This document shows positions 1,107-23,062 of a stretch of DNA of 32,740 nucleotides, piece after piece. The DNA is from Cnuella takakiae (GTDB taxonomy: Bacteria; Bacteroidota; Bacteroidia; Chitinophagales; Chitinophagaceae): positions 975,977 to 1,008,716 of the forward strand of contig NZ_MTFE01000010.1 of assembly GCF_001953305.1 (NCBI RefSeq), read 5' to 3'. The position numbers were made by a program, and so were the translations under genes. The notes under the pieces are model-generated. The model was given only the letters and a program-made list of their open reading frames with translations, did no database searches and was not told the DNA's origin. Numbering within the stretch: position 1 is the first letter of the stretch; each line of letters begins with the position of its first letter.

Positions 1107-1225
1107 GGTTTTTTGTTTTAGTTTTTGGTTTTTGGTTGGGGTGCAGGTGGCAGGTGCATTCATTTTCCCTAATCAATGATGCTGTTGAACCAAAAACTAA
1201 AAACAAAAAACCACAAACAAAAAAC
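1107..1225. repeat. Intergenic inverted repeat, A/C word
   Basis: The left arm (1107-1130) and right arm (1188-1212) are reverse complements over about 24 nt with a single one-base indel. Arms consist of AAAAACCAAAAACT-like words, and the word continues to 1225. The spacer is about 57 nt. It sits between two co-directional minus-strand genes, DUF502 and the phospholipase-like gene. Confidence 0.75.
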
Positions 1226-1870
1226 TCAATAAATATCCTTTCTCGCCCGCTTCGATTCCTCCACATTGGTAACCCCGCCACTGATGGCAAACTTCATGGT
1301 TTCGGAAGCGGTGATGCGGTTGATGGGTTTGATGCGGTGCGGCGGCAGGATGTACACGTTGCCGGCAATGGAGTAGGACATGGGCACATAAACCGCCACA
1401 TAGCCATCGAGGCCCAGTTCGTGGGCATCAGCGCGGGTGATAAAACCCACCCGCCAAACATCGGTATCGTCCACGCTGGCCAGCACGGGGCGGTTGAACT
1501 TTTTCTTTTCGCCGGCAAAAGCTTCAAAGAAATCCTTGACGGTGGAGTAGATCAGCCGCACACCCGGTGTTCTTTCCAGGAAAGAATCAAAGAGCCCGAA
1601 CAGCTTAAGCCGCAGGAAATAAGTAGACAAAAACCCGATCAGGCAAACGGTAACAATCACCACCAGGAAGCCCAGCCCGTAATTGCGCACATATACCTGG
1701 CCGTCGGCGCCTCTTGCGGTAAACAGGGGCACCAGGCTATCGATAGAGGAAACGATCCAGTAGATGGTATAGGCGGTAATGGTTACGGGTGCCAGCACCA
1801 GCAGGCCCTGCAAAAAATACTGAAACAGGCGGCTCCAGCGAAATCCTCCTGTTTGGTTGTTGCCATTCAT
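1226..1870 (-). CDS. DUF502 family membrane protein
   Basis: A 214-residue protein matching the DUF502 family in layout. It has two membrane segments (about residues 20-42 and 65-90), then a soluble half with the family-typical stretches RTPGVRLIYSTVKDF and YVPMSYSIAGNVYILPP. The family's role is unknown; it is widespread in bacteria and presumed to sit in the inner membrane. The start is supported by a TAnnTTTG promoter element only 4 nt before the ATG, implying a very short or absent leader. Length is ordinary for the family. Identification is confident; no specific function is claimed. Confidence 0.88.
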   Translation of the reverse strand: MNGNNQTGGFRWSRLFQYFLQGLLVLAPVTITAYTIYWIVSSIDSLVPLFTARGADGQVYVRNYGLGFLVVIVTVCLIGFLSTYFLRLKLFGLFDSFLERTPGVRLIYSTVKDFFEAFAGEKKKFNRPVLASVDDTDVWRVGFITRADAHELGLDGYVAVYVPMSYSIAGNVYILPPHRIKPINRITASETMKFAISGGVTNVEESKRARKDIY

Positions 1871-1874
1871 GTTG

Positions 1875-1882
1875 CAAAAGTA
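1875..1882 (-). promoter_or_regulatory. TAnnTTTG -7 element for DUF502 gene
   Basis: TACTTTTG on the minus strand, followed by CAAC and the ATG. This matches the Bacteroidota housekeeping -7 consensus. No convincing -33 TTG was found at 17-23 nt upstream. Confidence 0.5.
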
Positions 1883-2125
1883 GCAGATGGGGGCAGATGC
1901 GGCCGGCGGTTTTTACAAAACTGCGGTTCACGGTCTTGCTCAGGTGTAATTGCTGGCGTAGGCTGGCATTTAGGCTTGGGGTTGCGATACAAACCCGGTG
2001 TGCCTTCGGTACTGCTTTTTTTACACTATAAATCTAAAAACCTGATCGGGTTAAAACCCTGCTGAAACGAGCTCTGCCGGGTCCGTTCAACCCCTTTTTC
2101 CGACCTCCTAACCCAAAATTAATGT

Positions 2126-2155
2126 TGGAAACTCCAGCAACGTTAAAAGTTTCCA
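2126..2155 (+). promoter_or_regulatory. Candidate TetR operator (inverted repeat)
   Basis: TGGAAACT (2126-2133) and AGTTTCCA (2148-2155) form a perfect 8-bp inverted repeat with a 14-nt spacer. It abuts the -7 element at 2156-2163 and lies 17 nt before the regulator's ATG. Position and symmetry suit autoregulation by the TetR protein; binding itself is inferred. Confidence 0.45.
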
Positions 2156-2163
2156 TAGTTTTG
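2156..2163 (+). promoter_or_regulatory. TAnnTTTG -7 element for efflux operon
   Basis: TAGTTTTG, 9 nt before the ATG at 2173. It would lie inside the coding region if the earlier in-frame ATG at 2122 were used, which is one reason for preferring 2173. Confidence 0.5.
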
Positions 2164-2172
2164 GAACCGCTT

Positions 2173-2796
2173 ATGGAGGCAAAAGAACGCATACTGCAAA
2201 AGGCGCACGAACTGTTTCACCGGTACGGTATCCGCTCCGTTTCGATGGACGAGATCGCCTCGCAGATGGGCATGAGCAAAAAAACGCTTTACCAGCATTT
2301 TGCTGATAAAGACGCCCTGGTGGGTGAAGTGTTTGCAGCCCTGCTGCAGCACAAGCGGCAGGATTGCATGGACCTGCAGCAGGCCTCCGAAAACGCTGTG
2401 CACGAGGAGTTTATTGGTTTCGACAACATGAGCGAAATGCTCAGCAGCATGCACCCTTCGCTGCTGTACGACCTGGAGAAGTACCATCCCGAAGTTTTTA
2501 CCAAGTTCCGTTCCTTCATCGGTGATTTTGTGTACCGGCTGGTGCGCACCAACCTGGAACGGGGTATTGCCGAAGGCCTGTACCGACCCGAAATTGATGT
2601 GGACGTGCTGGCCCGCTTCCGGGTAGCCACCATTACCATTTCCTCCAACCCCGATTCGTTTCCCAACAGAAAACCCAACCTGGCCTACGTTGAAGAGCAG
2701 CTGCTCGACCTTTTCCTGCACGGGGTGGCCACAGCCAAAGGGCAGGAGTTGATCCGGAAATACAAAGACCAACGCTTAAAAACAGAAATAAAATGA
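2173..2796 (+). CDS. TetR/AcrR family transcriptional regulator
   Basis: Likely repressor of the downstream efflux genes, 207 residues from the chosen start. The first 50 residues form a typical TetR N-terminus: helix ERILQKAHELFHRYG, then the helix-turn-helix MDEIASQMGMSKKTLYQHFADKDALV. The rest is a divergent helical ligand-binding domain, so the inducer cannot be predicted. An ATG at 2122 would add 17 residues lacking any domain and would bury a promoter-like element and an inverted repeat, so 2173 is preferred. Its stop overlaps the start of the TolC-like gene (ATGA at 2793-2796), so regulator and channel are translationally coupled. Regulation of its own operon is inferred. Confidence 0.9.
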   Translation: MEAKERILQKAHELFHRYGIRSVSMDEIASQMGMSKKTLYQHFADKDALVGEVFAALLQHKRQDCMDLQQASENAVHEEFIGFDNMSEMLSSMHPSLLYDLEKYHPEVFTKFRSFIGDFVYRLVRTNLERGIAEGLYRPEIDVDVLARFRVATITISSNPDSFPNRKPNLAYVEEQLLDLFLHGVATAKGQELIRKYKDQRLKTEIK

Positions 2797-4184
2797 TCAC
2801 ACCCAAAATACTATTGGGCGCTTTGGCTATACTGCTGGCCGCATCGGCAGGTGCGCAAAAACGGTACGAGCTCACCGTTCGGGAGGCCGTGGAACTCGCC
2901 TATAAGAACGTGGCCGAAGTGAAAAACGCCCAGATCGACTACCGCTTGCAGGACGCCAAGAACAAGGAAATAACCGGCCAGGCCCTGCCCCAGCTTTCCG
3001 GTACCGTGTCGGGCAATTATTATACTTCTCTGCCTCAGTTCCTGTTTCCGGATGCTACTTCCACCGCCGTATATTCCATCCTGAAAGACGAAGGCGTTTC
3101 CGGCTCCGGTGGGCCCATCACCAAGGTGCCCGAACCTACGCTGCGGCAGGTAAGCTTTCAACAGCCTTCCAACCTGCAGTTTTCGGCCCAACTTACCCAG
3201 TTGTTGTTTCAGCCCGATGTATTTGTTGGCCTGCAGGCCCGCAAAACAGCACTGGACTACAATACCGCTTTGATTGAGCAGGTAAAGGAAAGGGTGAAAG
3301 ACTCGGCGTACAACCGTTATTATGCCATCCTGGTGGCACAGAAGCAGTTGTTTTACCTGAACGAAGGCGTGGCAAGGCTGGAGAAATTGTACCGCGATGA
3401 CAGCATCATGTACAAAAATGGTTTTGCCGAGCGCCTCGACCTGGAAAGGGTACAGGTGCAACTCAATAACCTGCGCACCACGCGCAATATTGTACAAAGC
3501 GGTGTCGACCTTTCCTATGCTGCGCTCAAGTTTGCGCTGGGTCTTTCGCAACGCGATACCGTGGTGCTGAAAGAAGAACTGAACGAATCAAGCATCAAGG
3601 ACGGGCTGCTGGAAGATGCCTTCAAATACGAGGACCGGCCCGAGATTCGCACCCTCGGCATTACCCGCCGCCTGCAGGAGCTGGACCTCAAACGCAACCG
3701 CCTGGGTTATTATCCTACCGTTTCCGCACTGGGCAATTTTACCCGTGGCGGCCAGGGGCGCAATGTTTTCCTGAACAATGGCAGCGTATGGATCAACTCC
3801 TCCTTTGTGGGGTTAAACATCAACGTACCCATATTCGACGGCTTCCAGCGCAAGTATAAAATTCAGCAGTCGCGCCTCAATATCGAAAAGCTGGATAATA
3901 CCATAACCAACGTAAAACAGGCCATCGACTTCGACCAGGTGGTATCCAAAACAAGCCTGGTGAATGCCCTCGAAAACCTGGACATACAGGTACGCAACCG
4001 GGCACTTGCCGAAAAGGTGTACAATACCACCAAGCTCAAATTTGAACAGGGACTTGGCTCTTCCTTCGAAGTGCTGCAGTCCGACAGCGACCTGCAAACT
4101 GCGCAATCCAATTATTTCAATGCCTTATACCAGGCTACGGTGGCAAGGGTAAGCTACCTGCGGTCACTGGGTAAATTAGAATAA
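2793..4184 (+). CDS. TolC family outer-membrane efflux protein
   Basis: Outer-membrane channel of the tripartite pump, 463 residues. The signal peptide (MITPKILLGALAILLAASAG) is followed by the YELTVREAVELAYKNVAEVKNA start typical of OEP/TolC proteins. Two repeated halves rich in long heptad helices follow; near the C-terminus EKVYNTTKLKFEQGLGSSFE and DLQTAQSNYFNALYQATVAR match the second OEP repeat. Length is normal for the family. It overlaps the TetR gene by 4 nt and is followed by the adaptor and RND pump genes, so it probably serves this pump. It belongs to the regulator-TolC-adaptor-pump order common in Bacteroidota. Confidence 0.93.
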   Translation: MITPKILLGALAILLAASAGAQKRYELTVREAVELAYKNVAEVKNAQIDYRLQDAKNKEITGQALPQLSGTVSGNYYTSLPQFLFPDATSTAVYSILKDEGVSGSGGPITKVPEPTLRQVSFQQPSNLQFSAQLTQLLFQPDVFVGLQARKTALDYNTALIEQVKERVKDSAYNRYYAILVAQKQLFYLNEGVARLEKLYRDDSIMYKNGFAERLDLERVQVQLNNLRTTRNIVQSGVDLSYAALKFALGLSQRDTVVLKEELNESSIKDGLLEDAFKYEDRPEIRTLGITRRLQELDLKRNRLGYYPTVSALGNFTRGGQGRNVFLNNGSVWINSSFVGLNINVPIFDGFQRKYKIQQSRLNIEKLDNTITNVKQAIDFDQVVSKTSLVNALENLDIQVRNRALAEKVYNTTKLKFEQGLGSSFEVLQSDSDLQTAQSNYFNALYQATVARVSYLRSLGKLE

Positions 4185-4186
4185 CT

Positions 4187-4270
4187 GGGAATTGGGTATT
4201 AGGTAATAGGTATTGTTTTATCAATCACCAATCACCAATACCCAATACCCAATCACCACTCACCATTCAC
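4187..4270. repeat. Intergenic inverted repeat inside efflux operon (CCAATACC word)
   Basis: The left arm (4187-4215) is built from ATTGGGTATTAGGTAAT-like words, the right arm (4221-4270) from complementary CCAATCACC/CCAATACC words, with almost no spacer. It occupies most of the gap between the TolC and adaptor genes. Positions 4221-4239 are identical to 11431-11449 (TCAATCACCAATCACCAAT). Confidence 0.75.
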
Positions 4271-4291
4271 TAGTTTTCAACCATCAACTAT

Positions 4292-5452
4292 ATGCAAAAG
4301 AATACATCGATTTTTCTGCTGCTCCTGCTCCTCGTGGCAGCGTCCTGCGGTAGCAGCCGCAAGGATGAAGCCGGCAGCCTGAATGATAAAAAGGCGCAGC
4401 TGGAACAATTGCGTAAAGAACAAAAAGAACTCGCTGCCAGGATCACCACCCTGGAGCAGGAAGTGGCTGTAGCCGATCCAAATGCGGCACGTGGTGTGGC
4501 TAAACTGGTGAACGTGGCGCCGGTAGCTTCCGAAGATTTTACCCATTATGTAGACCTGCAGGGTAAGGTAGATGCCACCAATATTTCGTATGTGGCGCCG
4601 CCCAATGGTCAGGGTGGTATAGTAACGGCGCTGCTGGTAAAACAGGGCGACAATGTGCGCAGGGGACAGGTGCTGGCGCGTCTTGATGATGCACTTATCC
4701 GCCAGCAGATAGAACCCCTGCGGGTACAGCTGCAAACCGCTGAAGATACCTACAAGCGCACCAAGAACCTCTGGGACCAGGGCATTGGTACCTACCAGCA
4801 GGTGCTGACCGCGCAAACACAGGTGGAAACCCTGCGCAAGCAAATCGGCATCATCCAGCAGCAGGCAGGTTTGATGACTATTACCGCACCACAGGGTGGC
4901 GTGGCCGACCAGGTGAATGTGCGTGTAGGTGAAATGTTTGTGGGCAATACCGCTATGGGACCGCAGATCCGCATTGTAAATACCGGCCGTCTCAAGATCA
5001 TTGCCGAAGTGCCCGAAAACTACCTGGGTAAAGTAAGCAAGGGCAGCAAGCTGCAGGTGTCCCTGCCCGATGTGAACAAGACTTTTGAAACTACCGTAAA
5101 CGTAGTGGGTCAAACCATTGACCCTGCTCGCCGCACCTTTTACATCGAAGCACCCGTACCTACCGAAGCAGGTATGAAACCCAACCAGGTGGCATCGGTA
5201 CGCATACAGGACTATGCCCGCACAGGTGCCATCACCATCCCGGTGAACACTTTACAAAATGACGACAAGGGCAAGTTTGTGATGGTAGCCACCAAGGAAG
5301 GCGACAAGACCGTTGCCCGCAAAAAATACGTGGAAGTAGGCGAACTGTACCGCGAAAAGCTGGAAGTAAAAAGCGGCCTCACCGGCGGTGAGCAGCTGAT
5401 CATCCAGGGCTTTCAGGGATTGTACGACGGGCAGCAGGTAACTACGGGGTAA
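4292..5452 (+). CDS. RND efflux periplasmic adaptor (membrane fusion protein), lipoprotein
   Basis: Adaptor linking the RND pump to the outer-membrane channel, 386 residues. It begins with a lipoprotein signal (lipobox VAASC, Cys near residue 19), so it is probably anchored in the inner-membrane outer leaflet. A short N-terminal coiled coil (about 31-55) is followed by a biotinyl-lipoyl-like half motif (GGIVTALLVKQGDNVRRGQV), a helical hairpin (about 140-185), the second lipoyl half (GLMTITAPQGGVADQVNVR), and beta-barrel and membrane-proximal domains. It is flanked on both sides by intergenic inverted repeats, yet its order between TolC and RND genes argues for one operon. HlyD/AcrA-type family assignment is secure; substrate is unknown. 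Confidence 0.93.
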   Translation: MQKNTSIFLLLLLLVAASCGSSRKDEAGSLNDKKAQLEQLRKEQKELAARITTLEQEVAVADPNAARGVAKLVNVAPVASEDFTHYVDLQGKVDATNISYVAPPNGQGGIVTALLVKQGDNVRRGQVLARLDDALIRQQIEPLRVQLQTAEDTYKRTKNLWDQGIGTYQQVLTAQTQVETLRKQIGIIQQQAGLMTITAPQGGVADQVNVRVGEMFVGNTAMGPQIRIVNTGRLKIIAEVPENYLGKVSKGSKLQVSLPDVNKTFETTVNVVGQTIDPARRTFYIEAPVPTEAGMKPNQVASVRIQDYARTGAITIPVNTLQNDDKGKFVMVATKEGDKTVARKKYVEVGELYREKLEVKSGLTGGEQLIIQGFQGLYDGQQVTTG

Positions 5453-5453: not shown

Positions 5454-5562
5454 ACAGCTGTCGGCTATTAGCTGTTAGCTGTTGGCCATTGCTGTTCTGT
5501 TATAAAAATATTCTTCGTGCAAAGAGCGATAAGCTAATAGCCAACAGCTAAAAGCCAAAAGC
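5454..5562. repeat. Intergenic inverted repeat inside efflux operon (AGCTATTAGCTGTTGGC word)
   Basis: Left arm 5454-5488 and right arm 5527-5562 are imperfect reverse complements built of GCTATTAGCTGTTGGC-like units, with a spacer of about 38 nt. It lies between the adaptor and RND pump genes. Confidence 0.75.
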
Positions 5563-5586
5563 CTTGCTCAACTCCAAACCGCCAAC

Positions 5587-8500
5587 ATGAGCGTACTAGA
5601 AAATCCCAACGGACCGTTCAAACACTTCAGACCCACCACCTGGAGTATCCTGAACAAAACGACCATCTACCTGCTGATGCTCTTTGTGAGTTTGGCCGGT
5701 GTGTTCCAGTTTGTGACCCTGCCCAAAGAGCAGTTCCCCGATATCGTTATTCCCAATATTTACATCCAGACCATTTACGCAGGTAATACCCCAAGGGATA
5801 TCGAAAACCTGGTAACGCAGCCCATCGAAAAACAACTCAAGGGCATCACGGGGGTAAAGATCAACAAGGTTACTTCTACCTCGCAGCAGGACTTCTCCAT
5901 CATCATCGTGGAGTTTGACACCGACGTGGATACCGATGAAGCTTTGCAGAAAGTAAAAGACGCTGTGGACAAGTCGAAGCAGGACCTGCCTACCGACCTT
6001 ACGCAGGAACCGGTGGTGATGGAAGTGAGCCTCTCGGAGCAGCCCATCATGTATGCCAACCTCAGTGGCGACTACGATCCCGTGCGCCTGAAGGAATACG
6101 CCGATGAAATGCAGGACCGCCTGGAAGAGCTGCCACAGATCAACCGCGTGGATGTGGTGGGTGCGCCTGAGCGTGAGTTCCAGGTAAACGTAGACAACCT
6201 GCGGATGCAGGCTGCGGGCATCACCTTCGATGATATTGCAGGCGCCATCAGCCGCGAGAACCTCGACATCTCGGGCGGACAGTTGGAAGTAGGCAATATG
6301 CGCCGCAACCTGCAACTGAAAGGCCAGTTGAAAACGGCACCTGAAATTGCCAACATCGTAGTGCGCAACAATGTGGGTGCACCCGTGTACCTGCGCGATG
6401 TGGCCGATGTGCGCGACACCATCAAGGAACGCGAAAGCTATGCACGCCTCAATGGCAAAAACGTTATTACCCTCAACGTGGTAAAGCGTTCGGGTGAAAA
6501 CCTGATTGAAACTGCGGAAGGGGTGAACAAGGTTGTAAAAGACCTGAAGGCCACTGTATTTCCACCCGACCTTGAAGTGGTGATCACAGGCGACCAAAGC
6601 ATCAATGCCCGCAACTCGTTCAACGAACTGGTAAACACCATCGTCATCGGTTTTATCCTGGTGTTGGTGATCCTGATGTTCTTCATGGGTGTGGTCAATG
6701 CCTTCTTCGTGGCCCTGAGTGTGCCCCTGAGTATTTTCGTTGCCTTCATCTTTATTCCCGGCGCCGAACTCATTGCGGGTTCTGCTGTTACACTCAACTT
6801 CATCGTGTTGTTTGCCCTGCTCTTCGGGCTGGGTATCATCGTGGATGATGCCATCGTGGTGATCGAAAACACGCACCGCATTTTCATGGAAGGTCGTGGC
6901 CGCATCAATAGCGAGAAGAGCGCGATGATGGCTGCAGGTGAAGTGTTCATCCCGGTACTGGCCGGTACGCTTACCACGCTGGCGCCTTTCCTGCCCTTGT
7001 TGTTCTGGCCGGGCATCATCGGTAAGTTCATGATCTACCTGCCTACCATGCTGATCTTCACGCTGGCGGCATCGCTCATCGTGGCCTTTATCATGAACCC
7101 CGTATTTGCCGTGGACTTTATGAACCACGAAGACGGGAAGGCAGAACCCAAGTCGGCCATTTTCCGCAAAAGGGGTTTGTGGTTTGCCGTGGCCATCGGT
7201 ATCCTGTTCGATATCATGGGGCTTACTTTTTTTGGCAACCTCATTCTCTTCATTGTGCTGCTGGTGATCTTTAACCGCTACATTCTTGATGATGTAATTC
7301 ATGGTTTCCAGAACCGCGTATTACCCAATATCATGACGCGCTACGAAGGATTGTTGCGCTGGGCACTTAAAGGCTGGCGCCCTGTGTGGCTGCTGCTGGC
7401 AACCTTTGGATTGTTTGTATTTAGTGTAATTGTATTTGGCATAGCCACTTCCACGCAATGGGTTAAAGTGGTGTTCTTCCCCAAGGCTGATCCGAACTTT
7501 ATTTACACCTATATCAAGATGCCCGTAGGCACCGATGTGGAGTATACCGACTCCGTAACCCGTGTGCTGGAAAACCGCGTGTACAAGGTGCTGGGTATGG
7601 AGAACGGCAAGAAGAACCCGATGGTAGAAAGCGTGATCTCCAACGTTGCCGTTGGTGCCGCCGACCCCGCCAGCGGCGACCGTACTACCCGTTCGGAACT
7701 GGGCCGCATACAGGTGTCTTTTGTGGAGTTTGAAAAACGCCACGGCAAAAGCTCGGCGCCTTATCTCGATGAAATTCGCGCCGTGATGAAAGGCGTGCCC
7801 GGTGCCGAGATATCGGTGGCACAGGAAAGCGGCGGTCCGCCCACCGATCCGCCCGTCAACATCGAAGTGGCATCCGAAAACATCGACGACCTGGTAAAGA
7901 CGGCGGTAAGCCTGAAGAACTACCTGGATTCCATCAATGTGCCGGGAGTGGAAGAACTGAAGATGGATGTGGATCTTACCAACCCCGAGATAACGCTGGC
8001 GGTTGACCGAAACCGTGCCCTGATTGAAGGTGTGAGCAGTGCGCAGATTGGTATGCAAATACGTACGGCGCTTTTTGGCCGTGAGGTTTCGAAGATCAAG
8101 GATGGTGAAGACGAATACAAGATCCAACTGCGCAACCAGGAGCTGCAGCGCAATTCGCTCACTGACCTGTTGAACATGAACATCACCTTTCGCGATATGG
8201 CCACCGGTCAGGTAAAGCGTATTCCTATTTCCAGCGTGGTAAAAGTGGATTATACCAGCACCCAGGGTAGTGTAAAGCGCAAAGACTACAAGCGGGTAAT
8301 TTCGCTGCGCTCCAATGTGCTCGAATCACAAGGTTATACAGCACAAGCGGTAAATACGCAGATCAAAGATTACCTCGACCGATTCCAGAACAAGCCGGCC
8401 AATGTAACCATCGGCCAGGCGGGTGAAAGCGAGCAGCAGGCTGAGACAGTGGCCTTCCTTGGACAGGCACTGGTGGTTGCGCTGATGATCATTTTGCTGG

Positions 8501-9177
8501 TGTTGGTGTTGCAGTTCAACTCTATTTCCAAACCTGTAATTATTCTTACCGAAATCCTGTTCTCTATCATTGGGGTGTTGCTGGGTTTCTCCATCACTGG
8601 TTTCGATGTGTCGGGTGTATTCACCGGTTTGGGTATCGTGGGTTTGGCAGGTATCGTGGTGAAAAACGGTATCCTCGTAATTGAGTTTGCCGAAGAACTG
8701 CGCCAGCGGGGTATGCGTACCCGTGAGGCCATTATACAGGCGGGTAAAACGCGGATCATCCCCGTAATGCTGACGGCACTTGCGGCCATCTTTGGTTTGA
8801 TTCCGCTGGCGGTAGGTCTGAACCTCAATTTTGTTACCCTGTTCTCGGAGTTCAACCCGCACCTGTTCTTTGGTGGCGATAGTGCCCGCTTCTGGGCGCC
8901 GCTGGCATGGACGCTGATCTTTGGTTTGATCTTCGCGTTCTTCATGACCCTGTTCATTCTGCCGGGCATGTACCTCATCGCCGAGCGTTTGCGCCGCCCC
9001 ATGCGCCGCATTTATGGTGGCAAATGGATATCCTTCCTGGGTATCCCACCGCTCACTTTGCTCTTTATTCCTTTGATGATCGCCACCATGATCATCCACC
9101 GCTTTGATGTGGCGCGCCGCCGCCGCAAACTGCAGGGAGAAAGGGTTGATGAAAAATTCGTGGGCAGCTGGTTTTAA
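5587..9177 (+). CDS. RND family efflux permease (AcrB/HAE-type)
   Basis: Proton-driven inner-membrane pump of the tripartite system, 1196 residues. TM1 is near residues 25-45, with a first periplasmic domain (porter and docking) after it. The TM4 motif GIIVDDAIVVIEN carries Asp420/Asp421, and the TM10 counterpart GIVVKNGILVIEF carries Lys1026; both belong to the proton relay. Typical AcrB relatives are about 1030-1050 residues. The extra length lies in the central cytoplasmic loop, which holds an added hydrophobic region (about 535-575), and at the C-terminus, which has one more hydrophobic stretch (about 1152-1172) before an Arg-rich tail. Exported compounds cannot be predicted. It is last in the operon and followed by a terminator. 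Confidence 0.95.
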   Translation: MSVLENPNGPFKHFRPTTWSILNKTTIYLLMLFVSLAGVFQFVTLPKEQFPDIVIPNIYIQTIYAGNTPRDIENLVTQPIEKQLKGITGVKINKVTSTSQQDFSIIIVEFDTDVDTDEALQKVKDAVDKSKQDLPTDLTQEPVVMEVSLSEQPIMYANLSGDYDPVRLKEYADEMQDRLEELPQINRVDVVGAPEREFQVNVDNLRMQAAGITFDDIAGAISRENLDISGGQLEVGNMRRNLQLKGQLKTAPEIANIVVRNNVGAPVYLRDVADVRDTIKERESYARLNGKNVITLNVVKRSGENLIETAEGVNKVVKDLKATVFPPDLEVVITGDQSINARNSFNELVNTIVIGFILVLVILMFFMGVVNAFFVALSVPLSIFVAFIFIPGAELIAGSAVTLNFIVLFALLFGLGIIVDDAIVVIENTHRIFMEGRGRINSEKSAMMAAGEVFIPVLAGTLTTLAPFLPLLFWPGIIGKFMIYLPTMLIFTLAASLIVAFIMNPVFAVDFMNHEDGKAEPKSAIFRKRGLWFAVAIGILFDIMGLTFFGNLILFIVLLVIFNRYILDDVIHGFQNRVLPNIMTRYEGLLRWALKGWRPVWLLLATFGLFVFSVIVFGIATSTQWVKVVFFPKADPNFIYTYIKMPVGTDVEYTDSVTRVLENRVYKVLGMENGKKNPMVESVISNVAVGAADPASGDRTTRSELGRIQVSFVEFEKRHGKSSAPYLDEIRAVMKGVPGAEISVAQESGGPPTDPPVNIEVASENIDDLVKTAVSLKNYLDSINVPGVEELKMDVDLTNPEITLAVDRNRALIEGVSSAQIGMQIRTALFGREVSKIKDGEDEYKIQLRNQELQRNSLTDLLNMNITFRDMATGQVKRIPISSVVKVDYTSTQGSVKRKDYKRVISLRSNVLESQGYTAQAVNTQIKDYLDRFQNKPANVTIGQAGESEQQAETVAFLGQALVVALMIILLVLVLQFNSISKPVIILTEILFSIIGVLLGFSITGFDVSGVFTGLGIVGLAGIVVKNGILVIEFAEELRQRGMRTREAIIQAGKTRIIPVMLTALAAIFGLIPLAVGLNLNFVTLFSEFNPHLFFGGDSARFWAPLAWTLIFGLIFAFFMTLFILPGMYLIAERLRRPMRRIYGGKWISFLGIPPLTLLFIPLMIATMIIHRFDVARRRRKLQGERVDEKFVGSWF

Positions 9178-9691: not shown

Positions 9692-10621
9692 ATGACCAAC
9701 GGTTTTGACAACCTGATCCGGATTGGCGTTTTTTACGACGGCAATTATTTCTCCGGTGTCAGCAATTACTACAATTATCAGCATTCCCTGCGCCGCCGCA
9801 TTTCTATTCGCGGCCTGCATAGTTTTATCAAACAACAGGTAGCCGAATCGCTGGGTACGCCTGCTTCCCTGTCACATATTGTAGATGCGCATTACTTCCG
9901 TGGCCGCCTGCCGGCACAGGAAGCCGCGCAAAAAGGCAAACTGCTGTATTACGAGCGTTTGTTCGATGATATCCTGATGAGTGAAGGTGTTACTACGCAC
10001 TACCTGCCACTGAAAGAAACTTTTTACAAAAAGGTAGAAAAGGGCCTCGATGTATGGCTGGCGCTTGAAGCCTTTGAAATGGCCGTGTATAAAAAGTTCA
10101 GCGTGGTAGTACTGCTAGCCGGCGATGGCGATTATGTGCCGCTGGTGCGCAAACTCAATACCCTGGGTGTACGGGTGATGGTGCTGGGCTGGGACTACGA
10201 ATACACCGATGACGAAAACAACCGCTATCAACACCGCGTAAGCCGCGAGTTGCTTACCGAGGCCACCTACCCGGTACGCATGACCGAACTGATCAACGAC
10301 CGCAGAAACGACGAGGATTTTCTAAGCCAGTTATTCCTGCAAAAGTCACGTGCCGAAACACAGGAGCGTACCTACCACACCGATGCGGAAGAAGTGGAGG
10401 AGGAAGAAGTGTATGAAGACGAAGAACTGCACAGCAGCTATGTGTTTTCTTTGAAAGATGGTTTTGGTTTTATCAAGCATCCGCCCAACAACCTGTTTTT
10501 CCATTACACCAACCTGCAGGACTGCAACTTTGAAGACCTCCGTCCCGGCGACCCTGTGCGTTTTGTCATTGGCGAGAAAGAAGACGGTCAGGAGTATGCG
10601 GTAAGAGTGTATAGAAATTAA
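9692..10621 (+). CDS. NYN domain protein with C-terminal cold-shock domain
   Basis: Predicted RNA-acting protein, 309 residues. Residues about 8-190 form a NYN (PIN-like, LabA/DUF88) nuclease fold with acidic residues at the expected places: Asp16 in IGVFYDGNYF, Asp120 in KGLDVWLALEAF, and Asp145/Asp147 in LLAGDGDYVPLV. A Glu-rich linker (231-245) leads to a compact cold-shock-like domain (about 247-309) with KDGFGFIKHP and NLFFHYTNL resembling RNP1 and RNP2. NYN domains cut structured RNA with metal ions, and the cold-shock domain would bind single-stranded RNA. The RNA target is unknown. The gene stands alone between its own promoter candidate and a strong terminator. Confidence 0.85.
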   Translation: MTNGFDNLIRIGVFYDGNYFSGVSNYYNYQHSLRRRISIRGLHSFIKQQVAESLGTPASLSHIVDAHYFRGRLPAQEAAQKGKLLYYERLFDDILMSEGVTTHYLPLKETFYKKVEKGLDVWLALEAFEMAVYKKFSVVVLLAGDGDYVPLVRKLNTLGVRVMVLGWDYEYTDDENNRYQHRVSRELLTEATYPVRMTELINDRRNDEDFLSQLFLQKSRAETQERTYHTDAEEVEEEEVYEDEELHSSYVFSLKDGFGFIKHPPNNLFFHYTNLQDCNFEDLRPGDPVRFVIGEKEDGQEYAVRVYRN

Positions 10622-10890
10622 TGTGCTGATGTGCTAATTAGCAAATGTGCTAATGGTGCGCAGCAGATTCAAAATAAAAAGTCAGTAGTGGGAAGTGATG
10701 TTTTCCACTACTGACTTTTTTTATGTAGCAAAACATCGTACCTGCACAAGGTGGATAACTTTGCGTGTGTTTTTTATTTACTGTTAAGTGCCGCCTGGTA
10801 CACACGAAAGCTACATCACTAAGTTTTGCTCCAAGCCACACTTACAACTGCACTTGCCCAACTTAGCACATTGGCTCATTAGCACATTAT
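10622..10890. repeat. Intergenic inverted repeat (GTGCTAATG word), long spacer
   Basis: Left arm 10622-10658 has GTGCTGATGTGCTAATTAGC-like words; right arm 10861-10890 has complementary CTTAGCACATTGGCTCATTA words. The roughly 200-nt spacer includes the terminator at 10676-10722. The right arm overlaps the stop codon of the small gene at 10887. Confidence 0.6.
10676..10722 (+). terminator. Rho-independent terminator after NYN gene
   Basis: A long stem pairs AAAAAGTCAGTAGTGG (10676-10691) with CCACTACTGACTTTTT (10705-10720), followed by a T tract. The A/T ends make it usable from both strands, so it may also end the convergent minus-strand transcript. Confidence 0.85.
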
Positions 10891-11331: not shown

Positions 11332-11361
11332 GCAAATGTCCCGGCGAAAGGAGTGCCAAAG

Positions 11362-11475
11362 AAGTGAATGGTGAATAGTGAATGGGGATTGGGTATTACC
11401 GTCCAACAACTAAAATTTTGTCAGTAAGAATCAATCACCAATCACCAATCACTACTTACCATTCACCATTCACAT
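11362..11475. repeat. Intergenic inverted repeat (CCAATCACC / GTGAATGG words)
   Basis: Left arm 11362-11400 (GTGAATGGTGAATAGTGAAT then ATTGGGTATTA) and right arm 11431-11475 (CAATCACC units then CATTCACCATTCAC) are reverse complementary. The right arm reaches the cdsA stop codon. It shares 19 identical nt with the repeat at 4221-4239. Confidence 0.75.
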
Positions 11476-16304: not shown

Positions 16305-17675
16305 ATGAACGATTCGCTTTTGCACGCCTTGCGGCAAAACTTCCAGCAGGGCAACTCGCGGTCTTATGCATGGCGGCGGCAGCAACTGCTGAACCTGAAG
16401 GCCGCTTTGTACCGGCACGAGGAAGCCATCTATGCAGCCCTTTCCGCCGACCTGAAGAAAAGCAAGGAAGAAGCCTGGATCACCGAGATAGGGTTTGTAC
16501 TGTCCGAAATAAGTTATGTGCTCAGGCACCTGAAAAGTTGGATGCAGCCCCAGAATGTGGGTACCAACCTGCTCAATTTTCCATCTAAAAGCTACCTGTT
16601 GTCGGAGCCCTTGGGTGTGGTGCTCATTATAGGGCCCTGGAACTACCCGCTGCAGCTGGTGCTGGCACCGCTGGTGGGTGCATTGGCTGCAGGCAATTGC
16701 GCCGTGGTAAAACCCAGCGAGCTGGCGCCTGCCACATCGGCCGTGTTGCGGCAGATAACCGCTTCGGCTTTTAAGGAAAATGAAGTGCTGTTGGTGGAGG
16801 GCGAAGGCGCTGCTGTTATTCCGCGCATGATGGAAGCCTTCCGATTTGATCATGTGTTTTATACCGGCAGCACCCAGGTGGGCACCATCATTTACCAACT
16901 GGCTGCCAAACAGCTGGTGCCGGTAACCCTGGAGCTGGGTGGAAAAAGCCCTACCGTTATTGAGCCCGATGCCAACCTGGAAGTAGCCGCCCGCCGGATA
17001 GCGGTAACTAAGTTCAGCAATGCGGGGCAGATGTGCGTGGCGCCCGATTACCTGTTGGTACACCAGTCGGTACGCGAACCATTTGTGCAGCACCTCAAAA
17101 AAGCCATTGATGATTTTTATGTTTCAGAAGCCGTACGCGACTATCACTATGGCAAGGTGGTAAACCAGCGGCAGTTTGACCGCCTGCTGCAATACCTGCA
17201 GGAGGGTACCGTGTTGTACGGGGGCAGCTACGATGCGCCAACCTTGCACCTTTCGCCCACCTTGCTGGCAGATGTGCGGCCGGAGGCCAAGGTGATGCAG
17301 GAAGAGATTTTCGGGCCGCTGCTGCCTGTTTTAACCTGGAGCAAGGAGCAGGAAGCCCTCGATATCATTGCCCGCAACAACAACCCGCTGGCATTTTATG
17401 TATTTACCGAAAACGATAAAAAGGCCAACTGGTGGATGGAACAGGTGCCCGCCGGCGGCGGCTGTATCAACAATGTAAGCTTTCATCTTACCAACCACAA
17501 CCTGCCTTTTGGTGGCCGTGGCAACAGTGGCATGGGTGCCTATCATGGCAAATACTCTTTCGATACGTTCAGCCACAAAAAAGGCGTCCTGAAGACGCCT
17601 ACCTGGTTTGACCCGGCTTTCAAGTATCCGCCATTTAAGGGGAAACTGAATATTTTGAAACGGTTTATGCGATGA
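16305..17675 (+). CDS. Aldehyde dehydrogenase (class 3-like)
   Basis: NAD(P)-dependent oxidation of aldehydes to acids, 456 residues, the short length typical of class 3/fatty aldehyde dehydrogenases. Active-site residues are Asn113 in GPWNYPLQL, Glu210 in LELGGKSP and Cys244 in NAGQMCVAPDYLL. The coenzyme loop FYTGSTQVG and the C-terminal motif NLPFGGRGNSGMGAYHGKYS are intact. The start at 16305 is chosen because the earlier in-frame ATG (16245) lies before the terminator hairpin and would encode it. Candidate substrates are long-chain or lipid-peroxidation aldehydes, which is inferred from the class. Confidence 0.93.
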   Translation: MNDSLLHALRQNFQQGNSRSYAWRRQQLLNLKAALYRHEEAIYAALSADLKKSKEEAWITEIGFVLSEISYVLRHLKSWMQPQNVGTNLLNFPSKSYLLSEPLGVVLIIGPWNYPLQLVLAPLVGALAAGNCAVVKPSELAPATSAVLRQITASAFKENEVLLVEGEGAAVIPRMMEAFRFDHVFYTGSTQVGTIIYQLAAKQLVPVTLELGGKSPTVIEPDANLEVAARRIAVTKFSNAGQMCVAPDYLLVHQSVREPFVQHLKKAIDDFYVSEAVRDYHYGKVVNQRQFDRLLQYLQEGTVLYGGSYDAPTLHLSPTLLADVRPEAKVMQEEIFGPLLPVLTWSKEQEALDIIARNNNPLAFYVFTENDKKANWWMEQVPAGGGCINNVSFHLTNHNLPFGGRGNSGMGAYHGKYSFDTFSHKKGVLKTPTWFDPAFKYPPFKGKLNILKRFMR

Positions 17676-17679
17676 GGCG

Positions 17680-17750
17680 GATATTTTGATATTGGGATAT
17701 TTTGGCGGGCAATTGCCCTACTGATATCCCAATACCGCAATACCCTTATA
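17680..17750. repeat. Intergenic inverted repeat (GATATTGGGATAT word)
   Basis: GATATTGGGATAT (17688-17700) pairs with GATATCCCAATA (17723-17734), with flanking partial copies on both sides. Located between convergent aldehyde dehydrogenase and lipoprotein genes. Confidence 0.65.
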
Positions 17751-19047: not shown

Positions 19048-19156
19048 GGATTGTTGATTCGTGATTATTGATTATTGGAAAGTGGCGGGAAGGTGAGTGA
19101 TGAGTAATGAGTGATGAGATGGGATATAGAAATGAATAATCAGTAATCAATAATCC
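19048..19156. repeat. Intergenic inverted repeat (GATTATTGATTATTGG word)
   Basis: Left arm 19048-19078 has GATTATTGATTATTGG-like words; right arm 19131-19156 has complementary AATCAGTAATCAATAATCC. The spacer contains its own tandem run of GAGTGATGAGTAATGA (19094-19118). It sits in the divergent gap between a lipoprotein gene and tadA. Confidence 0.7.
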
Positions 19157-19169
19157 TTTCCGGCCAACT

Positions 19170-19177: not shown

Positions 19178-19181
19178 GCAT

Positions 19182-19625: not shown

Positions 19626-19717
19626 GGGTGTAAATGGTAGCCGTCAATATGTGCCGGTACCGCCCATTGATCACCGAATTTTTACGTTGGCCTTACATTC
19701 CGGCAACCCCAGGCTTG

Positions 19718-19725
19718 TACATTTG
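19718..19725 (+). promoter_or_regulatory. TAnnTTTG -7 element for superoxide dismutase
   Basis: TACATTTG, 59 nt upstream of the ATG at 19785. A TTG at 19687-19689 is somewhat too far (28 nt) to be the usual -33 element. Confidence 0.4.
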
Positions 19726-19784
19726 TTGCTCCTACGGAAACGACAGACCAGATTTCCCATTGTTCATTCTTAAATACTATAGTT

Positions 19785-20390
19785 ATGGCATTTACACTTC
19801 CGCAACTTCCTTATGCACATGAGGCCCTGGAACCCCATATTGATGCACAAACCATGCAGATTCACCATGGCAAGCACCACCAGGCCTATGTTGACAACCT
19901 GAATAAAGCCATCGCCGGCACCGAGCACGAAAACAAAAGCATCGAAGAGCTGGTAGCCAGCGCAGGCAGCATTTCGCCCGCCGTGCGCAACAACGGTGGC
20001 GGTCACTGGAACCACACTTTCTTCTGGAACATCCTGGCGCCCAATGCCGGCGGACAACCCACCGGCGCCCTGGCCGAAGCCATCAACAGCACCTTTGGTT
20101 CCTTTGATGCGTTTAAAGAAAAGTTCAATGCCGCAGGTACCACCCGCTTTGGTTCGGGCTGGGCATGGCTGATTGTAAAAGACGGCAAGCTGGAAGTAAC
20201 CAGCACTCCCAACCAGGACAATCCCCTGATGGATGTAGCCGAAGTAAAAGGCACCCCCATCCTGGGTGTGGACGTGTGGGAACACGCCTACTACCTGAAG
20301 TACCAGAACCGCCGCCCCGAATACCTCGGCGCTTTCTGGAACGTGGTAAACTGGAATAAAGTGAATGAATTGTACGAGCAGGCGAAGTAA
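19785..20390 (+). CDS. sodA: Superoxide dismutase, Mn/Fe family (Mn-type features)
   Basis: Cytosolic superoxide dismutase of 201 residues; no signal peptide. Metal ligands are His27 (QIHHGKHH), His77 (HWNHTFFW), Asp163 and His167 ([10 protein letters not shown]). The outer-sphere Gln is at 144 in PNQDNPLMD and the position before the second ligand reads GGGHWNH. Both are characteristic of Mn-type rather than Fe-type enzymes, although cambialistic use cannot be excluded. GSGWAWLIV and the C-terminal [11 protein letters not shown] are intact. Followed by a composite repeat containing a hairpin that may serve as its terminator. Confidence 0.95.
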
Positions 20391-20402
20391 AACCTCGCCT
20401 CA

Positions 20403-20564
20403 CCCCCTGTCCCCCTAAAGGGGGAACTTAGGTCAAGTAACCTGAAATGTACAGCGCCCCTCTGCTTTGGAGGGGCGCTGTTGTATATAGCAACGTCAAC
20501 CTAAAGTTTATTCCAAAATGGTCAAGCACTCCGTCCTAAGTTCCCCCTTAAGGGGGACAGGGGG
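20403..20564. repeat. Composite inverted-repeat element with central hairpin
   Basis: Arms 20403-20432 and 20535-20564 are 30-nt inverted repeats with one mismatch; each arm is itself palindromic (TCCCCCTAAAGGGGGA type). The centre holds a 12-bp-stem hairpin at 20451-20481. No protein is encoded. The element fills the gap between convergent sodA and yidD and looks like a small MITE- or REP-type unit. Confidence 0.75.
20451..20481. terminator. Hairpin, possible bidirectional terminator of sodA and yidD
   Basis: ACAGCGCCCCTC pairs perfectly with GAGGGGCGCTGT around TGCTTTG. No strong T tract follows on either strand (TTGTATAT on plus), so terminator activity is tentative. Confidence 0.5.
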
Positions 20565-20574
20565 TATGAGCAGG

Positions 20575-20805
20575 TTAGGGCACCGGGTCATACCCGCTTC
20601 CACCCCAGGGATGGCAGCGGCCGATGCGCTTGATGGTCAGCCAGAAGCCTTTGAAAAGGCCGTACTTTTTAAAAGCCTCCAGCCCGTACTGCGAGCAGGT
20701 GGGGGTGTAGCGGCACGAGGGTCCCAGCAAGGGCGAAATAGCCAGCTGGTAAAAGCGGATCAGCCAGATAAAGGGCAGGGCCAGTATTTTAAACAGGGAT
20801 CTCAT
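20575..20805 (-). CDS. yidD: Membrane protein insertion efficiency factor YidD
   Basis: Small inner-membrane-associated protein of 76 residues thought to assist YidC-dependent insertion. The family core is complete: [34 protein letters not shown] and [19 protein letters not shown], with the conserved Cys residues. The start [12 protein letters not shown] at 20805 gives the standard N-terminal helix; the longer frame to 20901 would overlap rnpA much further. It overlaps the 3' end of rnpA by 17 nt, the usual rpmH-rnpA-yidD order. Confidence 0.93.
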
Positions 20806-21190
20806 TAATGCGGCGTTGGAGCTGTTGCAGGCATTTGGCCATGGCGGCGTGCACCTGTTCAAAGGTAAGCAGCTCTTTGCCGGTATACAGGAAAAAAACA
20901 TGCCCGGCAGTGTGGCGCTCCTCCATCAGTTGTAAAAGGGGCGCTTTCTGCAGGCGGTAGGCTTCGCGGAGCAGGCGCTTGATGCGGTTGCGGTCTACTG
21001 CCTTTTTAAAACTGCGTTTGGGGGCCGACACGCCGGCAAGCATACCCGCAGGTTGGGCTTCCGAAACAGGAAACAAGCGGCAATTCATTTTCACCGGGAA
21101 AGCATGATAGCCCTTGCCCTCGCTGAAGAGGGCATCTATCTGCTTGCGGCTTTTGAGCCGCTCCCGCTTGCTGAAGCTGAATTGAGACAA
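20789..21190 (-). CDS. rnpA: Ribonuclease P protein component
   Basis: Protein subunit that helps RNase P RNA bind and cleave the 5' leader of pre-tRNA, 133 residues and strongly basic. The N-terminal [19 protein letters not shown] and the family signature around [18 protein letters not shown] (about 68-85) are clear. The start is TTG at 21190: the next in-frame Met is residue 35, which would delete conserved sequence. The gene overlaps yidD by 17 nt and lies 275 nt downstream of rpmH, an unusually large gap for this pair, filled by an inverted repeat. Confidence 0.93.
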
Positions 21191-21381
21191 GAGATTCCGG
21201 ATTTGGGATTTTAGATTTCGGAGGTTTACAAAAGCACTGGTTTTCTTACGATAGGTAATTGCTTTGCATAAGCGTAGTGATTTCGGGTGCTTATTTCAGT
21301 TGTTTGAATATGCAATCTATAGTGCACGCAATTCGGTAGCAAACTATTGATATCCGAAATCCCACGTCCGAAATCATCCAC
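21191..21381. repeat. Intergenic inverted repeat between rpmH and rnpA (GATTTCGG word)
   Basis: Left arm 21191-21225 (GGATTTGGGATTTTAGATTT then CGG) and right arm 21349-21381 (ATCCGAAATCCCACGTCCGA then AATC) are imperfect reverse complements, separated by about 123 nt. Confidence 0.65.
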
Positions 21382-21465
21382 TTCCTGGTTACCTACAAAA
21401 AGCAAATAGCCCCGGCGGCCGGAGCTATTCAATAAGGTCTGAAACGGGACGGACCCGCTACTGGA

Positions 21466-21621
21466 CTATTTCAGCTTGCGCTCGTCGGAAACAGTCAGCT
21501 TTTTACGGCCTTTGGCACGACGACTAGCCAGCACTTTACGACCGTTAGCGGTCTCCATGCGTTTGCGGAAACCGTGAACGGTTTTGCGGCGGCGGCGATG
21601 CGGTTGGAATGTACGTTTCAT
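21466..21621 (-). CDS. rpmH: 50S ribosomal protein L34
   Basis: Very basic 51-residue ribosomal protein bL34 of the large subunit. It begins [20 protein letters not shown] and continues [20 protein letters not shown], the near-invariant L34 sequence, with a slightly extended lysine-rich C-terminus ([11 protein letters not shown]). The reading frame was worked out directly from the minus strand: start codon 21619-21621, stop 21466-21468. It leads the rpmH-rnpA-yidD group. No dnaA or origin-like sequence is adjacent here. Confidence 0.97.
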
Positions 21622-21939
21622 TATTAATAAGTTTTTTCACTTTAAGAATTGCCCGTGGAGAAGACGGGTTGGGTTCCATTTACTACAGGTCACCACACCC
21701 GCAGCTTGTGAAAGGACGGCAAAAGTAAGGAGGATTTTTGAATTGGCGGGGCCGGAACGGATTTTTTAATTTTAATATGCCTGCTTTCTCCTGTACCTGC
21801 TTGGTTTTTCGGGCAGAACGAAAAGATTGGTAGGGTAATACACAAAAAACAGGCTGCCCAAACCTGCTCTGCCCATTTAACACTGTTGGTTAACCAAGGA
21901 CAGGTCAGACCTTTGTTTGGGTAAACTAAATTTAAATGT
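21622..21939. other. Gene-free 318-bp interval upstream of rpmH
   Basis: Holds the rpmH leader and promoter element (21720-21727), a perfect 12-nt palindrome TTGGTTAACCAA (21886-21897), and the 3' flank of the M48 gene. No convincing terminator hairpin with T tract or small gene is seen. Confidence 0.5.
21720..21727 (-). promoter_or_regulatory. TAnnTTTG -7 element for rpmH
   Basis: TACTTTTG on the minus strand, 98 nt before the rpmH ATG. It would give a leader of about 90 nt. Confidence 0.4.
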
Positions 21940-22974
21940 TCATTCGGCAGTTTTCAGTTGTAGGAACAAACTATGCAACTGCTCGTCCTTGTTTCCTTCA
22001 GTACAGGTTCCCGAACGTTGGATGCTACCGATGCGTTTGCTTAAATCGGGGTGGCTGCTGAGCCATTCCGAAGGCTGCATGGCACCGCTTTCTTTTTGCA
22101 AAAAACGAAACAGCTGTACAAAGCCGCGACAACTGATGCCGCGTTGCCGCAACAGTTGCAAGCCCTCCATATCGGCCTCGGTTTCCAGCCTGCGGCTGTA
22201 GGATAGGTTCTTTAGCTCATTGACATTGTTGAGCAGCACGGCACTAACGGCGCCGGCATCGCCCACCAGCAGGGAAAGAAAAATGGTGCCGCCAAACTGC
22301 CGGAACACACTGCGCAGGGTGTGGCGGTTGCGCACATGTACAAACTCGTGGGCCAGCAGGGCTGCAAACTCATCGTAGCTGTCCAGGCCGCGGAGCAGCT
22401 TTTGGTATACTATGATATGACCGCCGGGCAGGGCAAAAGCATTGACCACATCTCCCTTTACCACGGTAATGCGTACCGGGTGTTCCGAGTCAAATTGCAG
22501 TGCCTGGAAAAAACGGTTGGCAGCCGCTGTAGCGGGTTTGTCGATGTCCGATGGCTGCACCATGGAGCGGTATACCTGCTCGCCCAGCTGTTTTTCGTAG
22601 CTATAAGGAAAGCGGGACGCCAGCAGTCCCGATACCCATGGCACCACCAGGAAATACACCAGGCTGAACAGCACCAGCACAATGGCCAGCAGTTTGGCCA
22701 GTGGCCCAAAGCGGCTGGCCCGGAACCGGTTGGCGGGATTGCGCAGGGCTTCGTGCAGCTGGCTGGTAAGCACAGCGTCTAAAACCTCGAGGGTTTGCGG
22801 CGGGTAGTCGTTGTAGCCAAAAAAGCTGGCGCGTTCCGAAGGCCGGATGCTGGCATACTGCCACAATACCGTACCGGCACCATCGGCACGGTGCAGCTCA
22901 ATAAAAAGGCCTTTACCTTCCAGCCGGATGGTGGCGGGATAGGAAAGGCCATTGCAGGTATAAGTAGCGTTCAT
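21940..22974 (-). CDS. M48 family zinc metallopeptidase
   Basis: Membrane-bound Ste24/HtpX-type protease of 344 residues. A soluble N-terminal domain (about 1-85) precedes a membrane segment (about 92-117, FGPLAKLLAIVLVLFSLVYF onward). The catalytic motif HEFVH gives His209, Glu210 and His213; the third ligand is Glu264 in SRRLETEAD, and SSHPDLSKRI is the family's C-terminal signature. It probably degrades or processes envelope proteins. The start at 22974 is preferred because the extra residues of a longer frame would be encoded by the word repeat at 22983-23009. Downstream of serS on the same strand. Confidence 0.9.
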   Translation of the reverse strand: MNATYTCNGLSYPATIRLEGKGLFIELHRADGAGTVLWQYASIRPSERASFFGYNDYPPQTLEVLDAVLTSQLHEALRNPANRFRASRFGPLAKLLAIVLVLFSLVYFLVVPWVSGLLASRFPYSYEKQLGEQVYRSMVQPSDIDKPATAAANRFFQALQFDSEHPVRITVVKGDVVNAFALPGGHIIVYQKLLRGLDSYDEFAALLAHEFVHVRNRHTLRSVFRQFGGTIFLSLLVGDAGAVSAVLLNNVNELKNLSYSRRLETEADMEGLQLLRQRGISCRGFVQLFRFLQKESGAMQPSEWLSSHPDLSKRIGSIQRSGTCTEGNKDEQLHSLFLQLKTAE

Positions 22975-22982
22975 GGTGGAAG

Positions 22983-23062
22983 TTTCTGGTTTTTTGTTTT
23001 TGGTTTGGGTGCATGCCATGCAACGATAGACTAAAAACTAAAAACGAGAAACCAAAAACGGG
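22983..23062. repeat. Intergenic inverted repeat (AAAAACCAAAAACT word)
   Basis: Left arm 22983-23009 (GGTTTTTTGTTTTTGGTTTG) and right arm 23028-23062 (ACTAAAAACTAAAAACGAG, AAACCAAAAACG). The word is the same as at 98-127 and 1107-1225, some 22 kb away. Confidence 0.75.

Follow-up and report, generated by a model that had tools for sequence, protein, structure and literature searches.

Introduction

Words of seven nucleotides (nt) repeated in tandem between genes are known from several bacteria. In this work, such arrays are described in Cnuella takakiae (Chitinophagaceae), starting from a stretch of 32,740 nt (contig NZ_MTFE01000010.1, positions 975977-1008716 of the 5.70-Mb genome), referred to below as the window, nine gaps of which hold inverted repeats made of short tandem units. 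Arrays with a step of 7 nt, called here heptad arrays, were found throughout the sampled part of this genome. The short tandemly repeated repetitive (STRR) heptamers of cyanobacteria are, like them, heptameric and intergenic, with several words per genome. Dispersed intergenic palindromes in many copies are also known as REP/RAYT systems, in which a common palindrome of 20-40 bp is found and copies lie beside a Y1 transposase gene. Unlike these, the heptad arrays share no core palindrome, and the Y1 genes of this genome are bordered by other repeats.

Intergenic heptameric repeats of the words GGGAATC and GGGGA(C/T)T have been described in Xanthomonas and Nostoc, and inverted pairs number 70-75 in each genome of Xanthomonas (Rehm et al. 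2015, PMC4692102). In the passages of that paper cited here, the repeats resemble the present arrays in their period of 7, their intergenic position, their degenerate units and their under-representation in divergent gaps, and they are likewise G-rich on the coding strand just past stops and on the non-coding strand just before starts. However, a single quadruplex-forming word is found per genome there, whereas 78 words were counted here and, of 270 arrays, 4 had a G3 quadruplex motif and 67 a G2 motif.

Direct repeats of TAACTGA have been reported in Beggiatoaceae, Cyanobacteria and five Bacteroidetes (MacGregor 2015, PMC4679880). As described in the passages cited, they are intergenic heptamer arrays near gene ends, as here, with 7-nt-step indels between close cyanobacterial strains and other heptamers alongside in some genomes. 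They differ from the present arrays in having one main word, in being direct repeats (one is indirect in the main genome) and in lying mostly just upstream of starts. The TAACTGA necklace was not among the 30 commonest words listed here, nor among the 80 of a second listing. Taken in the strict sense, the heptad arrays are neither TAACTGA nor GGGAATC/GGGGAYT repeats; in the broad sense of Rehm and MacGregor they belong to the intergenic heptameric repeats, having intergenic 7-nt units and inward G polarity.

An earlier note on this DNA had known of no named family for the repeats, which is half right, as published intergenic heptameric repeats share the polarity and, in the case of Xanthomonas, include inverted pairs. 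Period 7, polarity and inverted pairs are thus described already (PMC4692102), as are TAACTGA arrays (PMC4679880), as far as the cited parts of these papers go. What is new here is the coexistence of many vocabularies under one geometry, the sharing of a gap's words by its arms and the differently worded gain at an orthologous operon junction. A literature search, with most subscription journals outside its coverage, found no many-word inverted heptad arrays in Chitinophagaceae.

Results

Period-7 arrays in the genome

The main census covered 94 stretches (1.88 Mb) of the source genome, with 1159 gaps between 30 and 1000 nt long, 244,356 bp in total. One of these stretches overlaps the last 8.7 kb of the window, and the nine loci are covered by none. 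Genes were called by a purpose-built codon-usage caller, the usual cut for the array score was 9, and the control was one shuffle of each gap, compared at lags 5-10 and 14. This sample served for the counts of lag arrays, polarity, inverted repeats, vocabulary, phase, pair types and mismatches. A smaller sample of 57 stretches (719 gaps) served for the exact-run test, the distances to stops and starts, the repeat classes, which were assigned by hand-set patterns, and the distances between the consensus words of arms. L050-L052, picked near known word matches, and L191, L203 and L210, outside the even grid, were omitted from the own-genome counts.

At lag 7, 270 arrays were found, against 0 in shuffled gaps, spread over 184 of the 1159 gaps at a density of 1.1 per kb of gap. 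The earlier note had said that repeats no more frequent than in shuffled gaps would speak against a family, and the excess observed was large. Scaling by proportion, we infer that the whole genome would hold about 800 such arrays. Lag 14 was similarly enriched (194 vs 2 shuffled), followed by lag 8 (85 vs 4) and lag 9 (42 vs 1), while low counts were obtained at lags 5 (5 vs 5), 6 (8 vs 2) and 10 (7 vs 1). Tandem 7-nt units were concentrated in intergenic DNA, as only 24 lag-7 arrays were detected in 1,523,586 bp of coding sequence.

Exact self-match runs of at least 9 gave the same series of multiples: 86 vs 8.6 shuffled at lag 7, 85 vs 7.0 at lag 14, 33 vs 7.0 at lag 21 and 16 vs 3.6 at lag 28. 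Lags 8 (15 vs 7.8), 16 (20 vs 6.4) and 24 (18 vs 6.4) were slightly raised, and most others were close to the shuffled values.

In 91 of the 184 array-bearing gaps, the arrays formed heptad inverted repeats (93 in all), with a median arm length of 26, a complementarity of 0.88 and a median loop of 31 nt. These were found in 71 of 752 co-directional gaps, 9 of 200 convergent gaps (p = 0.03) and 11 of 207 divergent gaps (p = 0.07), whereas any heptad array was equally common in convergent (32/200) and co-directional (130/752) gaps (p = 0.75). In co-directional gaps, the inverted repeats started at a median of 8 nt past the stop and ended 48 nt before the start codon.

Polarity

The array nearest a stop was G-rich on the coding strand in 102 cases against 39 (11 equal), and the array nearest a start was C-rich on that strand in 102 against 12 (4 equal). 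When two arrays were present in one gap, 65 pairs faced inward and 3 outward, the remainder being parallel or undecided. The dominant polarity is thus G-rich when read inward from either end. Relatives showed the same polarity, at stops (43:11) and at starts (24:2).

By element, the G-C polarity of the stems was 75:15 overall, with 57:13 in co-directional, 8:1 in convergent and 10:1 in divergent gaps. Avoidance of start codons was considered as the sole cause of this polarity and is not sufficient, since the polarity persists in convergent gaps and in the 12 elements that are separated from both genes by more than 40 nt (10:1, one tie). Further long-loop repeats of the source genome were also G-C skewed (96:41).

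Words and arms

Seventy-eight consensus heptamers were recorded across the 184 gaps. A consensus word was common to 327 gap pairs, against a mean of 34 (maximum 62) in a composition-matched model. This roughly tenfold sharing and the genome-wide period-7 arrays bear out the proposal of a dispersed, slippage-type family. The word CAATCACCAATCAC had 64 overlapping matches in the source genome and its reversed control had 0; it was found in 6 of 117 family genomes including the source genome, once each in the other five. In addition, irregular 24-mers were common to 26 gap pairs, against 9.7 (maximum 12) when the units were shuffled.

Within one gap, inward-facing arrays had consensus words 0-1 letter apart in 27 of 51 cases, against 7% of cross-gap pairs. 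Arm identity was 0.867 in register and 0.67 when shifted by one unit, the first value being inflated because the register was picked by score. The arm of the same gap was a better match than the best foreign arm of the same word in 35 of 59 elements, with 7 ties. Arm likeness beyond a shared vocabulary, as in template-switched quasipalindromes, is therefore present in these elements.

When aligned in phase, the words shared a T-R-G-N4 pattern, with an information of 2.44 against 1.77-1.82 in column-permuted arrays, the invariant G being partly trivial as it is in part imposed by the alignment. The R alternated between A and G from unit to unit at a rate of 0.345, against 0.04-0.20 at other positions, and identity between arms ranged across positions from 0.75 at R to 0.96 at G. 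As a universal grammar, T-R-G was replicated only in part in relatives and was rejected: two of three relative sets exceeded all 100 permutations and one failed, R was the most variable position in just one of three, and a phase search on relatives' arrays alone gave a different optimum. A family-wide vocabulary was likewise rejected, as 18 of 68 relatives' arrays used a source-genome word, against 15% for random words; within one letter of source-genome words no excess was found among these arrays (88% vs 91%).

Terminator and RNA signatures

The earlier note had held that the repeats were not simply terminators, and this was confirmed. Of 73 co-directional heptad repeats, 2 had TTTT after the 3' arm, compared with 22 of 97 short-loop hairpins. 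The latter were found in 85 of 200 convergent and 92 of 752 co-directional gaps; they behave as terminators, and the heptad repeats differ from them. The U-tract and the convergent enrichment of intrinsic terminators were both looked for in the heptad repeats and not found. Furthermore, in the rpmH-rnpA gap, a terminator-like hairpin follows rpmH in the source genome and, as judged by eye, in 20 of 20 relatives, and the heptad repeat of the source genome lies farther on.

At mismatched stem positions, the sense strand of the co-directional heptad repeats had 48 G.U and 76 A.C (p = 0.015), opposite to what RNA pairing would predict, and the short-loop hairpin control had 31 G.U and 17 A.C (p = 0.06). 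Comparison of 51 loops gave only 3 related pairs across gaps, and the conserved body between terminal inverted repeats that marks miniature inverted-repeat transposable elements (MITEs) was not found among them. Since the loops are mostly unrelated, U-tracts are rare and no sense-strand preference for G.U is seen, the elements do not resemble terminators, MITEs or selected RNA hairpins.

Relatives and orthologous gaps

Twenty loci of the same genus held 32 lag-7 arrays (0 shuffled), a density of 0.68 per kb of gap; arrays lay in 22 of the 244 gaps. In 69 adaptor-gene loci, mostly from Chitinophagaceae or unplaced Bacteroidetes, 36 arrays were found against 1 (4 in a second shuffle), at 0.39 per kb. 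Thirteen loci of other genera gave 20 against 0, at 0.82 per kb, a set biased upward because two of the 13 (L226 and L242) were picked around a word match. In seven loci of other families, with just 9.8 kb of gaps, no lag-7 array was found, nor after shuffling.

Three orthologous operon gaps were compared. The gap between the efflux and adaptor genes is 107 nt in the source genome, most of it occupied by the element; in relatives, it is 11-69 nt in 69 of 71 distinct gaps, and the remaining two are 116 and 185 nt, the longer of which (L131) holds a single-sided heptad array. Here and in the adaptor-pump gaps, arrays were scored in every gap and listed for gaps of at least 80 nt (2 of 71 and 39 of 78, respectively). 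The other 39 adaptor-pump gaps fall below 80 nt, and C-rich hairpins of a different class are present in several of the longer ones.

Among the 78 adaptor-pump gaps, heptad arrays were found in G009 (L006), Niastella caeni (L157) and Terrimonas ginsenosidimutans (L175), with one arm in Agriterribacter humi (L117) and a weaker array, scoring 8, in G003 (L007). An inverted repeat exceeded the cut in L006 and L175 alone; the arms in G003, Niastella and Agriterribacter were judged by eye. The words of all these arrays differ from those of the source genome. For rpmH-rnpA, one of 20 relatives (G010, L257) had a heptad inverted repeat, of other words, and a perhaps worn arm was seen by eye in G016 (L254).

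Most relatives thus lack the element and a few carry differently worded arrays, which comes closer to a random absence without shared words in close relatives, an outcome that the earlier note had set against its proposal. Recurrence of arrays at one junction fits independent gain at the background rate, because 22 of 244 same-genus gaps carry arrays anyway; it is not itself a sign of function.

The nine loci of the window

Complementary arms, as first proposed, were present in all nine gaps, near the coordinates first given (Table 1). The arms had been described as imperfect tandem words of 6-16 nt. Their tandem nature was confirmed, and the range of sizes gave way to a fixed step, which is 7 in seven loci (1107, 4187, 5454, 11362, 19048, 21191 and 22983), 8 at 10622-10890 and closer to 8 at 17680-17750. 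The recurrence reported for AAAAACCAAAAACT stands as an excess, with 12 window matches against 0.67 expected; it is exact only at 100 (+) and 1120 (-), and the other ten have 1-2 mismatches. TCAATCACCAATCACCAAT is exact at both 4221 and 11431, as had been claimed, with 0 expected.

Table 1. Tandem arrays and inverted repeats of the window, with the called genes beside them
Feature	Position	Arms or strand	Gene context
Single period-7 array	96-127	- (G-rich on -)	11 nt beyond stop of - gene 138-1103; from tandem repeat and gene call
Heptad inverted repeat	1107-1225	1107-1137, 1188-1225	Occupies co-directional gap between genes 1226-1870 (DUF502) and 138-1103, both -
Heptad inverted repeat	4186-4270	4186-4215, 4222-4270	Directly past stop (4184) of outer-membrane efflux gene 2793-4184
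Heptad inverted repeat	5456-5563	5456-5496, 5519-5563	Between adaptor gene 4292-5452 (stop 5452) and AcrB-like gene 5587-9177
Period-8 inverted repeat	10619-10889	10619-10653, 10850-10889	Overlaps stop at 10621; separate terminator-like hairpin inside, 10676-10720
Heptad inverted repeat	11361-11476	11361-11397, 11432-11476	Right arm overlaps stop of - gene 11470-12306
Inverted repeat, about period 8	17679-17745	17679-17704, 17724-17745	Past stop (17675) of aldehyde dehydrogenase gene 16305-17675
Heptad inverted repeat, divergent gap	19049-19155	19049-19077, 19131-19155	Extra heptad array at 19094-19118
Heptad inverted repeat	21193-21381	21193-21222, about 21353-21381	Between rpmH (21466-21621, -) and rnpA (20789-21190, -); rpmH terminator hairpin outside
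Heptad inverted repeat	22982-23059	22982-23006, 23030-23059	Between seryl-tRNA synthetase gene 23063-24331 and peptidase M48 gene 21940-22974, both -

Many window arms abut gene boundaries, as called. By Pfam, the neighbouring genes include a series of TetR, outer-membrane efflux, adaptor and AcrB-like genes, and elsewhere rnpA and rpmH, seryl-tRNA synthetase, an Fe/Mn superoxide dismutase, and an NYN protein with a cold-shock protein. An Rfam search of the window at gathering scores gave 0 matches.

Other repeats of the genome

A period-8 class with a fixed core GCTAAT and two variable letters ahead of G was noted (L063, L041, L064 and window 10619-10889, for example); it has inward G polarity like the heptads (20:1 elements). 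Many gaps, for example in L044, L082 and L066, contain inverted repeats of period 8/9 that belong to the CACGCAAAGGCGC and CACGGATGGAACGGAT kinds. At 20391-20576 of the window, between convergent genes, lies a long inverted repeat of the CACCCCCTGTCCCCCTAAAGGGGGAACTTAGG class, which was found in further gaps of the genome and is C-rich outside, the reverse of the heptads; C-rich hairpins resembling this class are also present in relatives' adaptor-pump gaps.

The only two Y1 transposase genes found in the genome (L113, about 1350-2190, and L114, about 1280-2120; near 584775 and 2176478) carry palindromes of the CCCACGGTTTCAACCGTGGG and GCCGCCGGTGCAACCGGCGG kinds at their flanks. These are apparent REP/RAYT systems, distinct from the heptads, which showed the features of such systems at neither Y1 locus.

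Discussion

The mechanism that we favour is template switching. In this reading, to which we give an even chance, heptad arrays form at the level of DNA, grow by slippage in 7-nt steps, receive a second arm by fold-back template switching and are mostly tolerated after stops. A 7-nt word array would arise in a gap, most often directly past a stop, where such arrays are observed, and would then grow in 7-nt steps; slippage would account for the period of 7 and its multiples. Fold-back (intrastrand) template switching in replication would have produced the second arm as the reverse complement of the first, or would keep the two alike. The words and word order common to both arms are observed and point to such copying, which would explain the mirrored word order together with the unrelated loops. 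Words may occasionally move between loci, as the shared irregular stretches suggest, and arrays would be gained and lost and mostly tolerated.

Template switching homogenises the arms of inverted repeats (PMC8604942), and Monttinen and Loytynoja argue that intrastrand switching corrects pairs to the 5' base, enriching 5' G/3' C and 5' U/3' A (PMC8794818). Copying of the 5' arm would convert G.T wobbles to G-C. On either strand, the 5' arm would thereby become richer in G, in agreement with the polarity observed in all three gap classes. The quasipalindromes of these papers resemble the present elements in being imperfect inverted repeats with similar arms (PMC8604942) and in the argued 5' G/3' C enrichment, likewise strong here (PMC8794818). 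They differ, as far as the cited passages describe them, in having no 7-nt units, and the argued T-A enrichment is absent by element here.

Several results weigh against this reading. Besides the arm identity inflated by choice of register, about half of the array-bearing gaps have no detectable partner arm, and 17 of 59 elements match the best foreign arm of the same word better than their own. The tenfold sharing of words between loci exceeds what purely local slippage would predict. An excess of T-A over A-T is also predicted by the template-switch bias; pair counts lean this way (696:544), but elements are divided 44:44. The GGGGGACAGGGGG class (0:8) and the short hairpins (62:110) are reversed in G-C polarity. 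Finally, the nearest relative has about 75% DNA identity over the pump gene, so that slippage and copying events are inferred from the arrays.

If the elements acted in RNA, as stabilisers or attenuators, the arms would pair in the transcript and either protect the upstream message or attenuate the downstream operon gene. The preference of heptad inverted repeats for co-directional over convergent or divergent gaps and their start a few nucleotides past the stop are what such a role would predict. However, any heptad array is equally common in convergent gaps, divergent gaps show the same polarity, sense-strand mismatches favour A.C over G.U, unlike in the short-loop hairpins, and most orthologous gaps compared lack the element. 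This role, put forward in the earlier note, was not borne out, and we regard it as rather unlikely. Unusual intrinsic terminators, for which the position of arrays past stops, in convergent gaps too, might speak, are nearly discounted by the rarity of TTTT, by the preference of short hairpins but not of heptad repeats for convergent gaps, and by the separate terminator-like hairpins at 10622 and in the rpmH-rnpA gap.

The remaining alternatives concern the words themselves. A putative DNA- or RNA-binding protein reading T-R-G every 7 nt would explain the information of the T-R-G-N4 pattern above permuted arrays, with its invariant G and its R switching between A and G, and the two relative sets that score over all 100 permutations. 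Yet the invariant G is in part an alignment product, one of the three relative sets fails, R is not the most variable position in two of them and the relatives-only search settled elsewhere; arrays of binding sites are, in our opinion, distinctly unlikely. Mobile elements of MITE or REP/RAYT type, copying whole units, would agree with words found again at many loci, with the irregular 24-mers common to more gap pairs than expected with shuffled units, and with true REP-like families adjoining the two Y1 transposase genes. But the loops are unrelated save for the 3 pairs, no core is common to the 78 words and both Y1 genes are bordered, by eye, by other palindromes rather than by heptads, which makes such an origin improbable.

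A broader form of the template-switch reading, which we hold only tentatively and consider doubtful, is that period-7 inverted arrays act as an attractor of bacterial replication irrespective of their sequence: any stop-proximal heptamer would grow by 7 nt at a time and acquire its mirrored arm through template switching. If this were true, Xanthomonas, cyanobacteria, Beggiatoaceae and Chitinophagaceae would converge on one architecture and polarity with differing words, and the value of 7 would be physically fixed by the replication machinery.

Roughly a sixth of the sampled gaps of this genome carry a heptad array, and much of its noncoding DNA is therefore shaped by them. Because it combines dozens of vocabularies with one geometry, this single genome allows the constant features (7 nt, inward G polarity, mirrored arms) to be told apart from the variable word, which single-word genomes could not do. 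Readings tied to a particular word, such as quadruplexes, are weakened by this, and the preference of bacteria for heptameric repeats, an old question, becomes testable.

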